From: Elusimicrobiota bacterium
GTDB lineage: Bacteria; CG03; SLGR01; PWQF01
Direction of reading: 5' to 3'
NCBI GenBank assembly: GCA_003557485.1
Contig: PWOI01000128.1
Location: 1-17,298, forward strand
Length of the DNA: 17,298 nt
Under the pieces are notes generated by a model. That model was not told the origin of the DNA. It ran no database searches and was given only the letters and a program-made list of their open reading frames with translations. Within the stretch, counting starts at the first letter, position 1. The number at the start of each line of letters is the position of its first letter. The translations under genes were made by a program, and so were the position numbers. Below, in pieces: positions 2-4,096 of the stretch.

Positions 2-826
2 AGTTTTCTATACCGTCCGCTGGGAAAACTGACACCGGTCGGAATCAGTGTTTCAGGAGCCGTTTCACACAGCCTTGCACAGGTAGCAGTCGCTTATTTC
101 ATTTTAGTAAGGCATACGGGGGTTTTTTATTTTCTTCCATTAATAATACTCTCGTCAGTGATTGCCGGATGGGTTACGGGGCTTGCGGCAAAAACCGTTT
201 CAGTGTCAATAGCTCCCTATGCGGACAGAAAAGTTTACCTTGTGTCCACATCCGAACGTAGAATAAGCATATTAAAATCCAAGGGAGTGCCGGTTCTGAC
301 AGTTTCCCCGGAAATAGAGGAGGATTTACCTCTTCCAGTTGAAACCCCCCGGGAATACGCCTCGAGGCAGGCAAAAAACAAACTGGACAGCTTAAAGGGA
401 AAGCTTCGGGGACCGGGTATAGCGCTTTCTGCAGATACAGTGGTTGAATGTGGAGGGAAAATATACCTTAAACCTGATGATTCGGGAGAAGCACACAGTA
501 TGATTACAGAACTCAGCGGTAAGGTTCAGACTGTATACACTGCGGTTTTTGCCGAAAATCTTGAAACCGGAAGAAGAGAGAAAACCGTTGGAAAAACCGT
601 GCTGAAGCTAAAAAAAATACCGCCCGAAGAAATAAAAAGGCTGTCCGATAAAAATCTTGATAAGGCAGGGGGCTATGCTCTCCAGGGGCTGAAAGACAGA
701 TATATTAAATGGATGAAGGGAAGTTATTTAAATGCGGTAGGTTTTCCCGCAGGAGCAGTATCGGGGCTTCTTAAAAAAGTCTCGCGGGTTCGTCCGGTCT
801 CTCAGTCCTCTGAGGAGGCTGAATAA
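2..826 (+). CDS. Gx-type transporter / Maf nucleotide pyrophosphatase fusion (5' partial)
   Basis: The frame is open from the window edge to TAA at 826 (274 visible residues). Visible residues 1-66 are hydrophobic and carry a glycine-rich stretch (PVGISVSGAVSHSLAQ, 12-27) followed by a membrane segment (about 43-65). This resembles the C-terminal end of the Gx transporter family, also annotated heptaprenyl diphosphate synthase component I. From residue 78 a full Maf domain follows: STSERR (82-87, family form S-x-S-P-R-R), SADTVV (143-148, catalytic Asp145), KP (157-158), LSGK (171-174) and DKAGGYALQG (220-229). The DKAG-Y-QG form fits YhdE-type Maf enzymes, which hydrolyse dTTP/UTP and modified pyrimidine nucleotides to monophosphates. 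No stop and no ATG separate the parts; GTG at 203 is the only plausible separate Maf start and lacks a ribosome site. The fusion is read directly; its function is unknown. The gene end overlaps the convergent gene by 56 bases. Confidence 0.8.
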   Translation, partial: SFLYRPLGKLTPVGISVSGAVSHSLAQVAVAYFILVRHTGVFYFLPLIILSSVIAGWVTGLAAKTVSVSIAPYADRKVYLVSTSERRISILKSKGVPVLTVSPEIEEDLPLPVETPREYASRQAKNKLDSLKGKLRGPGIALSADTVVECGGKIYLKPDDSGEAHSMITELSGKVQTVYTAVFAENLETGRREKTVGKTVLKLKKIPPEEIKRLSDKNLDKAGGYALQGLKDRYIKWMKGSYLNAVGFPAGAVSGLLKKVSRVRPVSQSSEEAE

Positions 827-1496
827 CATTAAAATTTATATCAATCCGGGCGTTTTGCCTTAGATTTTCCATCCAGTAGTTGTAGAGCGAAATTCTTTTT
901 TCCTGCAGGATTTCTTCTCTGAGTTCCATCGCCCGTTCCTGAAAATTATCCATGGATCCGTATTCCGTCTTATAATAAAGTTCAAGTTCGGGATCCGACA
1001 CTATAGCGGTTGATATAACTGCCTGTTCCAACTTCTGCACGGCGATGCTTCGGCGTATCATTTCTTCAAATTGATCAGGAGTCATTCCCAGGTTAAAATT
1101 AAGGACATTTCTGTATATATCAGGGTGAAACTGTCCCTCGTGCTGGAACTGCGGCAGGCTTCTTATTGTCTGTATTATTTCATCATCTGATACGGTTATT
1201 CCCATACGTTTTGCCTCCTGCAGCATCAGTTCCTGGTTGATAAGAGAAAAAAGAGCCTGCTGCCTTACCATCATGGCATCATCGTCGGTGACGGTTCCCT
1301 CTGAATCTTCCCTGTAGCGCCTTATCCGCCTTGAGAACTCGCTCTGGAATTCCTGTATTTCAATTCTGGTTCCGTTAACAGTTGCCGCATAGGTTTTAAG
1401 GCCACCGGTACCATACCAGAAGAATATTCCGATAATAAAAAGGCCGGCGACTATCCAGAGGACTGTTTTCATGTGTTTTCTCATTTGATTCATCAT
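771..1496 (-). CDS. SurA/PpiD N-terminal-domain protein, membrane anchored, no parvulin domain
   Basis: This is a 241-residue protein with a basic N-terminus and one membrane segment at about residues 11-28, followed by a SurA-N-like chaperone region (ATVNGTRIEIQEF at 38-50, continuing to about 175 and ending in a VSD-type motif before YY). In PpiD and SurA a parvulin prolyl isomerase domain normally comes next. Here the chain passes straight into the short C-terminal helix-and-strand piece (about 184-222) that usually closes a PpiD-like fold, so it is probably a periplasm-facing chaperone without isomerase activity. The start could be Met1, Met2, Met5 or Met9; I used the first, and none has a clear ribosome site. 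Its promoter is back to back with that of hisH. The last 56 coding bases overlap the Maf fusion gene on the opposite strand. The domain call is firm; the cellular role is inferred. Confidence 0.75.
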   Translation of the reverse strand: MMNQMRKHMKTVLWIVAGLFIIGIFFWYGTGGLKTYAATVNGTRIEIQEFQSEFSRRIRRYREDSEGTVTDDDAMMVRQQALFSLINQELMLQEAKRMGITVSDDEIIQTIRSLPQFQHEGQFHPDIYRNVLNFNLGMTPDQFEEMIRRSIAVQKLEQAVISTAIVSDPELELYYKTEYGSMDNFQERAMELREEILQEKRISLYNYWMENLRQNARIDINFNVIQPPQRTERPDEPARLF

Positions 1497-1505
1497 AACA
1501 GTAGA

Positions 1506-1534
1506 ATACTATAATAAATTGTTTGAAAATTCAA
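1506..1534 (-). promoter_or_regulatory. Predicted sigma70-type promoter of the SurA-like gene
   Basis: Read on the minus strand, TTGAAT (1534-1529) is followed after 17 nt by TAGTAT (1511-1506); TATAGT (1513-1508) is an alternative -10 with 15-nt spacing. Only 9-11 nt separate the -10 from the first ATG at 1496, so the mRNA would have almost no leader. Prediction by eye. Confidence 0.4.
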
Positions 1535-1551
1535 ATCTTTTCTGATATATA
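1523..1551 (+). promoter_or_regulatory. Predicted sigma70-type promoter of hisHF, leaderless
   Basis: TTGAAA (1523-1528, five of six matches to the -35 consensus) is followed after 17 nt by TATATA (1546-1551, four of six). The hisH ATG is at 1558, so transcription starting about 7 nt after the -10 would begin at or next to the start codon. There is no room for a Shine-Dalgarno site or a His attenuator leader. The -35 abuts the divergent -35 of the SurA-like gene inside the palindrome TTTGAA-AA-TTCAAA (1522-1535). Confidence 0.45.
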
Positions 1552-1557
1552 TAAGCC

Positions 1558-2169
1558 ATGATAGTTGTGATAGATTACAATCTTGGTAATATAAAAAGTG
1601 TTTTCAGGGGATTTGAGAAAATAGGTGCTCCTGTAAAAATTTCATCTTCCGCTTCTGATATTGACAGGTCCGACGGAATGGTGCTTCCGGGAGTCGGAGC
1701 TTTCAGAAAGGCTATGGAAAATCTGGAGTCTCTGGGACTGACAGATAAGATAAAGAAAAACATATTTTCAGGTAAACCCTACCTGGGAATATGCCTTGGG
1801 CTGCAGGTTCTTTTCAGTTCGAGCTGCGAACACGGTGAAACGGCCGGACTTAACATAATAAAAGGAAAAGTTAAAAAATTCGGGTCAGGGGTCAAGATTC
1901 CGCATATGGGCTGGAACAATGTCCGGTATAAAGAAAAAACAACAATCTTTAACGGAGTAGAGAGCGGGTCCTATTTTTACTTTGATCATTCGTATTATGT
2001 GGAGCCTTCGGAAGAAACAGTCTGTGCAACCACCGTTTACGGGAATGAATTCACTTCGGCTGTAGTTAGAAATAATATTTACGGGGTACAGTTCCATCCG
2101 GAAAAAAGTGGAGAAAAGGGGTTAAAAATGCTTAAAAATTTTTCAGAGATATGCTTACCAAAAGAATAA
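1558..2169 (+). CDS. hisH: Imidazole glycerol phosphate synthase, glutaminase subunit
   Basis: HisH is a class I glutamine amidotransferase. It hydrolyses glutamine and channels ammonia to HisF for the fifth step of histidine synthesis in the cytoplasm. The 203-residue length is normal. The N-terminus [11 protein letters not shown] matches the family. The oxyanion-site motif PGVGAF lies at 44-49, the nucleophile Cys79 in GICLGLQ (77-83), and the His180/Glu182 pair in QFHPEKSG (178-185). The segment FDHSYYV (142-148) corresponds to the usual FVHSYYV. The ATG at 1558 lies 6 nt below a predicted -10 and has no ribosome site, suggesting leaderless initiation. Its end overlaps hisF by 19 bases, as expected for subunits made in equal amounts. 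HisH distinguishes this pair from an ammonia-only HisF. Confidence 0.95.
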
Positions 2170-2909
2170 TACCGTGCCTGGACATAAAAGACGGTAGGGT
2201 TGTCAAAGGAATTGAATTTAAAAACCTGCGGGATGCCGGGGATCCCGTAGAGGCGGGAAAAAGGTATTCAGAAGAAGGGGCCGACGAACTGGTTTTCCTG
2301 GACATAAACGCATCGGCAGAGAACAGGAAATCAACAGTGGACCTGGTTTCAAGGGTTGCCGCCAGTGTTTTTATACCTTTCACCGTTGGCGGCGGAATAA
2401 GTGAAATAGAAGACATTAAAAATATTCTCCGGGCCGGAGCTGATAAAGTATCAATAAATACTGCTGCATTTGAAAATCCCGATCTTATTAAAGAGTCTTC
2501 GGAAGAGTTTGGGGTTCAGTGCATAGTATGCGCAATAGATGCCAGAAAAAAGGAAGAAGGCAAATGGGAGGTTTATTTAAGGGGCGGCCGCCAGGCTACA
2601 GGTACGGATGCTGTTGAATGGGCGCGCAAGGCAGCCGATTTGGGAGCCGGAGAGATTCTTCTGACCAGTATGGACGCAGATGGAACAGAAGACGGTTATG
2701 ACATTGAACTCACTAAAGCCGTTGCTGAAGCTGTTAATGTCCCTGTCATAGCTTCCGGCGGAGCCGGCAACCTGAAACATCTTTCCGACGTAATTAAATT
2801 CGGGAAAGCAGATGCGGTATTGGCTGCATCTATTTTTCATTTCAAACAGCACAGCATAAAAGAAGCAAAACTGTATCTTCAAAAAGAAGGGATTCCGGTA
2901 AGGTTTTAA
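2151..2909 (+). CDS. hisF: Imidazole glycerol phosphate synthase, cyclase subunit
   Basis: HisF uses ammonia from HisH to convert PRFAR into imidazole glycerol phosphate and AICAR, linking histidine to purine synthesis. The 252 residues form a (beta/alpha)8 barrel with catalytic Asp11 ([14 protein letters not shown], 7-20) and Asp130 (CAIDAR, 127-132). Phosphate-binding glycine loops are FTVGGGI (77-83) and VIASGGAG near residue 200. Two halves with matching Asp residues are typical of the HisA/HisF family. The sequence [13 protein letters not shown] and the absence of the HisA pattern make it HisF. The ATG lies inside the end of hisH, in a different frame, without a strong ribosome site, so it probably depends on translational coupling. 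No further gene follows on this strand before the convergent aminotransferase. Confidence 0.96.
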
Positions 2910-2911
2910 TC

Positions 2912-2937
2912 GAGAAGAAATTATTTAATTTCTTCTA
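2912..2937. terminator. AT-rich hairpin between convergent hisF and aminotransferase genes
   Basis: The arm 2913-2922 (AGAAGAAATT) pairs perfectly with 2927-2936 (AATTTCTTCT) around a 4-nt loop. It lies just past the hisF stop and contains the stop codon of the convergent aminotransferase gene (2921-2923). A symmetric stem could act in both directions, but it is AT-rich and lacks a long T-run on either side, so terminator activity is uncertain. Confidence 0.4.
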
Positions 2938-4096
2938 TAAATTCTTTTATTCTGGAAAGCCCTTTGGAGATGTTGTCCATGGAAGCCGCATAGGAAAGGC
3001 GTATGTAACCGGGTGCTCCGAACCCTTCTCCCGGAACAACCGCAACAAGCTTTTCTTCAAGGAGTTTAGTTGCGAATTCATCAGAGGATGATATCCCGCC
3101 CCGAAGCAGAGAGCTTATATCCGGAAATATATAAAAAGCTCCTGCCGGCCTGTTTACTTTAATGCCGTCAATGGAGCTGATCTCATCGTATATATAGTCG
3201 CGCCTTTTTCGGAACTCTGCAACCATCTCCTGTATGGCCCGTGAGCTTTCAGGCGAATCCAGGGCCTCAATAGCGGCATACTGTGATACTGTTGCGGGGT
3301 TCGAGGTTGAATGAGATTGGAGCCGTCCGCACGCGGCAATAATTTCCCTGTCACCCGCAGCATAGCCGATGCGCCATCCGGTCATGGAGTAAGCTTTTGA
3401 AATTCCGTTTATCACAATGGTCCGATTCTTCATTTCCGGTGATACCTGGGCTATACCGTAAAATTCTTCTTCATAAGTTAAATGTTCGTATATTTCGTCT
3501 GAAATCACATAAATGCCGTTTTCGAGAATTACAGAGGAAAGTTCTTTAAGTTCATCTTTAGTGTAAAGAGCCCCTGTAGGGTTTGAAGGGGAATTAAGGA
3601 TTAAAATCTTTGTCTTGGCGGTGATATTCTCCTTGAGCAGAGAAGGGGTTATCTTGAAATCCGGACCGCACTTTACTTCTATGGGGGTTGCGCCTGACGC
3701 TTTTACCATTTCCGGATATGAAACCCAGTAAGGAGCGGGAATTATTACTTCGTCGTCCTGCTCTGCCAGGCATAGGATCACATTAAATAATGAGTGTTTT
3801 GCTCCGCAGTTTATTATGACTTCATCCGGTGCGTATTCAAGTCCGTTTTCATTTTTAAACTTACGGCATACCGATTTTTTAAGAGCGGGCAGGCCGCTGG
3901 CTGGAGTATACTTGGTTTCACCTCTTTCGATAGAAGCTATAGCTGCTTTTTTAATAAAAGAGGAAGTATCAAAATCCGGTTCGCCGGCTCCGAATCCTAT
4001 GACATCTTTACCCTCGCTTTTAAGCTGTTTGGCATTAGCCGAAATGGCGAGAGTTGATGAAGTCTCTATTTTCTGTGCTAGCTGAGATATTTTCAT
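2921..4096 (-). CDS. aspC: Class I pyridoxal-phosphate aminotransferase, aspartate type (Ib-like)
   Basis: The enzyme moves amino groups between aspartate (or a related amino acid) and 2-oxoglutarate. It is 391 residues, normal for the Ib subgroup found in Bacillus and Thermus. Visible motifs are GAGEPDFDT (36-44) and KYTPASGLPALK (62-73) at the N-terminus, NSPSNPTG (168-175), SDEIYEHL (199-206), and SKAYSMTGWRIGYA (233-246) with the PLP-binding Lys234. A late Arg in YIRLSYA fits the substrate carboxylate-binding site. Substrate cannot be fixed from sequence: aspartate is most likely, but glutamate-prephenate or aromatic substrates are possible in this subgroup. It is a single-gene unit, convergent with hisF and divergent from the tRNA cluster. 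The ATG at 4096 has no Shine-Dalgarno site and sits 11 nt from a predicted -10. The symbol is by similarity. Confidence 0.88.
   Translation of the reverse strand: MKISQLAQKIETSSTLAISANAKQLKSEGKDVIGFGAGEPDFDTSSFIKKAAIASIERGETKYTPASGLPALKKSVCRKFKNENGLEYAPDEVIINCGAKHSLFNVILCLAEQDDEVIIPAPYWVSYPEMVKASGATPIEVKCGPDFKITPSLLKENITAKTKILILNSPSNPTGALYTKDELKELSSVILENGIYVISDEIYEHLTYEEEFYGIAQVSPEMKNRTIVINGISKAYSMTGWRIGYAAGDREIIAACGRLQSHSTSNPATVSQYAAIEALDSPESSRAIQEMVAEFRKRRDYIYDEISSIDGIKVNRPAGAFYIFPDISSLLRGGISSSDEFATKLLEEKLVAVVPGEGFGAPGYIRLSYAASMDNISKGLSRIKEFIEEIK

Follow-up and report, generated by a model that had tools for sequence, protein, structure and literature searches.

The locus described here raises the question of whether a Maf nucleotide pyrophosphatase has genuinely been joined to a membrane transporter and, if so, what the two might do together. 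Maf proteins have a wide distribution and their overproduction affects cell division; the reason for their retention is debated. The window, by which we mean the whole stretch of DNA analysed, comprised the entire contig C166 of its source genome (17,298 of ~2.07 million bases). A sequence-only reading of its first bases had described a Gx-type transporter running in frame into a complete Maf domain, with no stop and no ATG between the two, and had offered either membrane tethering of the enzyme, perhaps linked to isoprenoid metabolism, or a lost stop codon that was simply tolerated.

The fusion gene (Table 1) was read in frame 2, open from base 2 to the stop codon at 824-826, giving 274 residues with an open 5' end and no upstream stop; the longest open stretch in the other five frames over 2-826 was 97 codons. 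A Pfam search with the window protein placed both domains in one polypeptide above their curated cut-offs, as the sequence-only reading had anticipated: residues 9-65 matched positions 91-146 of the 147 in PF07456 (47-51 bits against a cut-off of 30), and residues 77-259 matched positions 1-186 of the 187 in PF02545 (120.5 bits against 27). The window DNA contained neither a stop nor an ATG between the domains, which agreed with the earlier description. Three GTG codons occurred near the join and were not conserved in the relatives. A hidden internal start from which a separate Maf could be made was ruled out, as no conserved ATG, GTG or TTG was present near the Maf start across the fusion relatives. 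The missing N-terminal part of the transporter domain lay on another contig of the source genome, at the very edge of C161. C161 ended in WAVM and the window began with SFLYRPLGK, whereas relative G001 was continuous across this site as WAVM-SILYRPLGK; judged from this one relative, the two contigs therefore appear to abut directly, and the full-length fusion protein of the source genome is predicted to have ~374 residues. At its 3' end the gene overlapped a convergent SurA-N-like open reading frame by 56 bases in antisense (window 771-826), and a similar overlap was seen in G001.

Table 1. Coordinates of the features discussed; positions given without a contig or locus name are those of the window.
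Feature	Position	Strand	Basis or remark
EetB (PF07456)-Maf (PF02545) fusion gene	2..826	+	Frame and Pfam; 5' end on contig C161, same genome
PF07456 / EetB-like ECF-S membrane domain, C-terminal part	26..196	+	Profile positions 91-146
Linker of ~11 residues, last membrane helix to Maf, without a stop or a conserved internal start codon	197..229	+	
Complete Maf domain	230..778	+	Profile positions 1-186 of 187
Maf motif S-x-x-R (Ser10, Arg12, Arg13 of YhdE)	245..262	+	
EIEED with metal-binding Glu (Glu33 of YhdE, Glu44 of ASMTL)	311..325	+	ASMTL alignment
AKNK with conserved phosphate-binding Lys (Lys52 of YhdE)	371..382	+	
SADTVV with catalytic Asp and YhdE-subfamily Thr (Asp70, Thr71)	428..445	+	
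YLKP with conserved Lys82	464..475	+	
ALQG with Gln153 of the YhdE subfamily (R-T-Q)	677..688	+	
SurA-N-like protein, convergent neighbour; 3' end overlaps fusion tail	771..1496	-	
N-terminal part of PF07456 (profile 1-81)	G000:C161:1-306	-	68 bits against cut-off 30; contig edge, reading off the end
Divergent Rnf-like cluster, rnfCDGEAB order	L025 (G000:C161) 299-3674; L029 8018-12126	- in L025	
Histone-deacetylase-like gene (PF00850)	L025 3653-4567; also L026, L027, L028, L029, L031	- in L025	
PF07456-ECF-T (CbiQ, PF02361) fusions, genomes G082 and G350	L083 3107-4309; L082 3976-5307	+; -	

The same architecture was found, in full length and in frame, in all seven other genomes examined of this order of uncultured bacteria, so that with the window's own it was present in eight of eight genomes from four families and independent assemblies; close relatives with two separate genes were not found. 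In the seven relatives the fused frames measured 355-448 codons from stop to stop, encoding proteins of ~355-375 amino acids, and the full-length PF07456 domain scored up to 134 bits. Stops reported inside the matches in G004 and G007 turned out to lie behind the end of the open reading frame, not at the join. The surrounding locus was mostly conserved: in the seven relatives the next gene was the SurA-N-like one on the opposite strand, and most also had HisH/HisF and an aminotransferase there. Maximum-likelihood analysis placed all eight fused Mafs in one clade with support of 100/100, indicating a single origin of the fusion as far as sampled. Between G000 (the source genome) and G001, dN/dS was ~0.10 for the linker and Maf (dN 0.14, dS 1.44) and ~0.13 for the Gx part (dN 0.10, dS 0.78), which shows both halves to be under purifying selection. 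A stop or frameshift masked by faulty assembly or sequencing could be suspected because the window starts inside the gene, at a contig end. The join, however, lies ~200 bases inside the contig, and the same continuous frame in seven independently assembled genomes excludes both an error and a recent loss of a stop, leaving such an artefact a vanishingly small probability. The idea of a tolerated lost stop codon thus fails as an account of a recent accident, the fusion being old, monophyletic and under purifying selection, though it may originally have arisen by stop loss in a tightly spaced eetB-maf pair.

The Maf signature consists of six residues, S-R-E-K-D-K (Ser10, Arg13, Glu33, Lys52, Asp70 and Lys82 of YhdE), to which the YhdE subfamily adds the residues R-T-Q (PMC3899018). 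The window protein and its seven relatives had all six signature residues, the register of the Glu being set by the alignment with ASMTL, as the PDB chain of YhdE that was used has Ala there. R-T-Q was present in the window and in six of the seven relatives, the exception being G007, where Arg12 is replaced by Gln. Since these residues are intact in a domain that covers nearly the whole profile, the earlier claim of a complete Maf domain with its main motifs was borne out, and the Maf half is predicted to be an active NTP pyrophosphatase of the pyrimidine, YhdE type. It was the sole PF02545 match in each of the eight genomes of the order. A contig profile scan returned, for Maf, only an unrelated Dehalococcoidia protein.

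For the membrane half, the old family name of PF07456, 'heptaprenyl diphosphate synthase component I', is misleading. Listeria EetB, the characterised member of this family, binds FAD, acts as the ECF-S subunit in an FAD exporter that serves the flavin transferase ApbE, and is needed for flavinylation; genes of the PF07456 family are found close to apbE and, in 572 clostridial genomes, to Rnf (PMC9973259). Maf is not mentioned in that paper. ECF-T genes were present in all eight genomes of the order, and ApbE in six of the eight, including the source genome, where it lay on another contig; it was not found in G004 or G006, both incomplete genomes. Two genomes outside the order, G082 and G350, had PF07456 fused to ECF-T, which supports a role of PF07456 as an ECF-S subunit. 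The C-termini of ECF-S proteins are cytosolic in known structures.

Directly upstream of the fusion, C161 encoded a histone-deacetylase-like protein, RnfC-like and RnfD-like proteins, an FMN_bind (RnfG-like) protein, two small membrane proteins and a ferredoxin (RnfB-like). The two small membrane proteins occupied the places of RnfE and RnfA, and the order and sizes of the genes fitted rnfCDGEAB. Among the five relatives with sufficient contig (those of G005 and G007 ended too soon), the same cluster was found upstream in G001 and G002, with recognisable members in G003, G004 and G006. Profile matches were obtained for RnfC, RnfB and FMN_bind, mostly under the NCBIfam cut-offs, and weakly for RnfD and RnfA in G002. 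The RnfA-, RnfD- and RnfE-like proteins of the source genome had no match among the Pfam and NCBIfam Rnf models, and comparing its RnfA- and RnfE-like proteins by profile with a single genuine Rnf-Nqr subunit gave none either; the cluster is possibly a new branch of Rnf. ApbE modifies proteins at the motif D-x-x-[S/T]-G-A-[S/T] (PMC12052999). The RnfG-like protein had D-x-x-T-G-A-T in G002, G003, G004 and G006, whereas the corresponding DVITEAT in the source genome and DVVTAAT in G001 both deviated at the Gly. In G002 the ferredoxin and fusion genes were separated by an EetA-like NusG_II gene. In all genomes of the order in which the stretch was present, the Rnf-like cluster was immediately preceded by the histone-deacetylase-like gene (PF00850).

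The survey covered 386 genomes (16 from the window's phylum and the others from various further phyla), as well as 398 from the phylum of G210 and 6 from that of G223. Among the matches listed for the ~780 of these that lie outside the order there was no Gx-Maf fusion, and a full-length match would have ranked top. Separate genes were a different matter: eetB was directly upstream of maf on the same strand in 16 of the 81 genomes having both, from ~11 families and with gaps of -16 to 259 bases, and apart from it in the other 65. An estimate with ~2,500 genes per genome gave ~0.1 adjacent genome by chance, against the 16 observed, although the genomes are not independent. In all 16 pairs eetB came first, and the usual order was apbE-eetA-eetB-maf. 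Some lineages had radC or mreB after maf (radC-mreBCD), so adjacency could partly stem from a flavinylation cluster inserted next to an old maf-radC-mre block. Neither radC nor mreB, however, was within the stretch read in G125, G133, G223, G262 and G353, and conservation of the pair across ~11 families, also in the absence of these genes, suggests more than chance packing. G223 had the order Rnf-apbE-eetA-eetB-maf followed by SurA-N on the opposite strand, an unfused counterpart of the window; G353 had apbE-eetA-eetB-maf and the same convergent SurA-N gene on a contig that starts within apbE, so that Rnf was visible only in G223. These unfused blocks (L075 and L081) suggest an old gene order common to two phyla. 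Eight Bacillota-type genomes among the 398 of the G210 phylum looked like fusions because the model match spanned both domains, but proved to hold adjacent genes with one in-frame stop between them, which indicates that a fusion could form easily. A second independent fusion in G176 (G176:C6:144330-145619, a reported open frame of 504 amino acids) was likewise rejected, as four stops separate the genes; a reported open frame can mislead where separate genes share a frame.

We regard it as probable, though with reservations, that the fusion combines an EetB-type exporter subunit with an active Maf of the YhdE type, placed on the cytosolic side, and that it goes back to an apbE-eetA-eetB-maf operon. 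Under this reading it would be a two-domain membrane enzyme whose N-terminal half, an EetB-type ECF-S subunit, binds FAD and, with an ECF-T/A module, moves it out of the cytoplasm for use by ApbE in attaching FMN to the RnfG-like subunit, whose gene lies just upstream. The Maf half, at the C-terminus, would be held at the cytosolic membrane face and is predicted to act on UTP/dTTP and modified-pyrimidine triphosphates. The fusion would have been born once, in the ancestor of the order, from the older gene order. For this protein we infer FAD as the substrate, the cytosolic position of Maf, its enzymatic activity and, more tentatively, functional coupling; real coupling of Maf and exporter beyond co-expression seems doubtful to us, if possible. 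Several observations sit uneasily with the exporter-Maf reading: the upstream Rnf-like subunits are very divergent, the RnfG motifs of two genomes lack the Gly, ApbE is on another contig and was not found in two incomplete genomes, the placement of maf before radC-mreBCD in some lineages may partly explain adjacency by cluster insertion, and it is not obvious what the chemistry of Maf (NTP to NMP and PPi) would contribute to FAD export.

What the join means for the cell can be read in several ways. The membrane domain might carry a different substrate, such as an isoprenoid precursor, and the Maf link would then belong to nucleotide or lipid-carrier metabolism. The family name suggests as much, but since PF07456 is now known as EetB, with a characterised member that binds FAD and on which flavinylation depends (PMC9973259), this is quite improbable; the neighbours are Rnf-like here and apbE and eetA elsewhere, with no prenyl synthase recognised among them, and the two fusions to ECF-T also speak against it. 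Of the tethering once proposed for this locus, the attachment of a nucleotide pyrophosphatase to a transporter therefore stands, while its link to isoprenoids has become less likely. A stronger contender, falling a little short of probable in our judgement, is that the fusion is neutral, a housekeeping Maf attached through stop loss between tightly packed genes, with the two halves working independently. A single Maf copy per genome with an ordinary YhdE signature, a short linker and conserved residues that suit two independent modules, unfused pairs elsewhere that are one in-frame stop from fusion, and the radC/mre genes after maf in several lineages all fit this. Neutral attachment accounts less well for an eetB-maf order that persists in ~11 sampled families outside the order, even without radC/mre, and for a fusion never undone in eight genomes.

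The alternative to neutrality is that Maf works in flavin export, either by cleaving competitors of FAD at the cytosolic mouth of the exporter or by acting on a flavin nucleotide that sets FAD export. Recurrence of apbE-eetA-eetB-maf in distant lineages, always with eetB upstream on the same strand, and the fusion in one order are in its favour, whereas the Maf residues match pyrimidine-triphosphate Mafs and not a new pocket, eetB and maf are apart in most genomes that have both, and our literature searches found no paper linking Maf with apbE, EetB or Rnf; we consider such a role conceivable but unlikely. More speculative still is the proposal that Maf belongs to the EetB/ApbE flavin-export and flavinylation pathway as a dedicated component that has so far gone unrecognised, tied to it through an adjacent gene in several distant lineages and through a shared protein in this order. 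Maf would then act on nucleotides, possibly a flavin nucleotide, at the cytosolic mouth and thereby control or protect FAD export. That the gene order recurs speaks for some functional link, without proving one.

The Gx-Maf domain architecture is real and conserved, and apparently unreported in the literature searched. Its conserved join to an FAD-export subunit, together with the same gene pair in distant bacteria, gives Maf a concrete, testable partner, and eetB-maf emerges as a recurring operon link alongside the fusion. Maf may have an overlooked link to the flavin supply of proteins outside the cell. It is also a candidate for a new factor in extracytosolic flavinylation, a process that serves both Rnf and extracellular electron transfer. 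Should the fusion prove neutral after all, EetB-Maf would still stand out as a recurring operon pair, one that annotation misses because PF07456 carries its isoprenoid name.

Among known systems, Listeria EetB (PMC9973259) belongs to the same Pfam family and has a comparable neighbourhood of flavinylated redox proteins, with ECF-T genes likewise found throughout the order studied here, but it is a stand-alone protein, whereas here Maf is attached at the C-terminus and the partner system resembles Rnf. EetA-EetB fusions (14 genomes, PMC9973259) and the PF07456-ECF-T fusions of G082 and G350 also tie EetB to functionally linked neighbours, though the partner is EetA or ECF-T and not an enzyme. 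Mafs of the YhdE/BSU28050 subfamily (PF02545; PMC3899018) share with the fusion the complete domain, the six signature residues and the R-T-Q specificity residues, but are usually soluble, stand-alone proteins of ~190 residues, while this one is joined to a multi-helix membrane domain. Human ASMTL, a Maf-methyltransferase fusion (PDB 2P5X, 6XI4), likewise has Maf as one module of a two-domain protein; there a soluble methyltransferase lies C-terminal to Maf, whereas here a membrane transporter subunit lies N-terminal to it.
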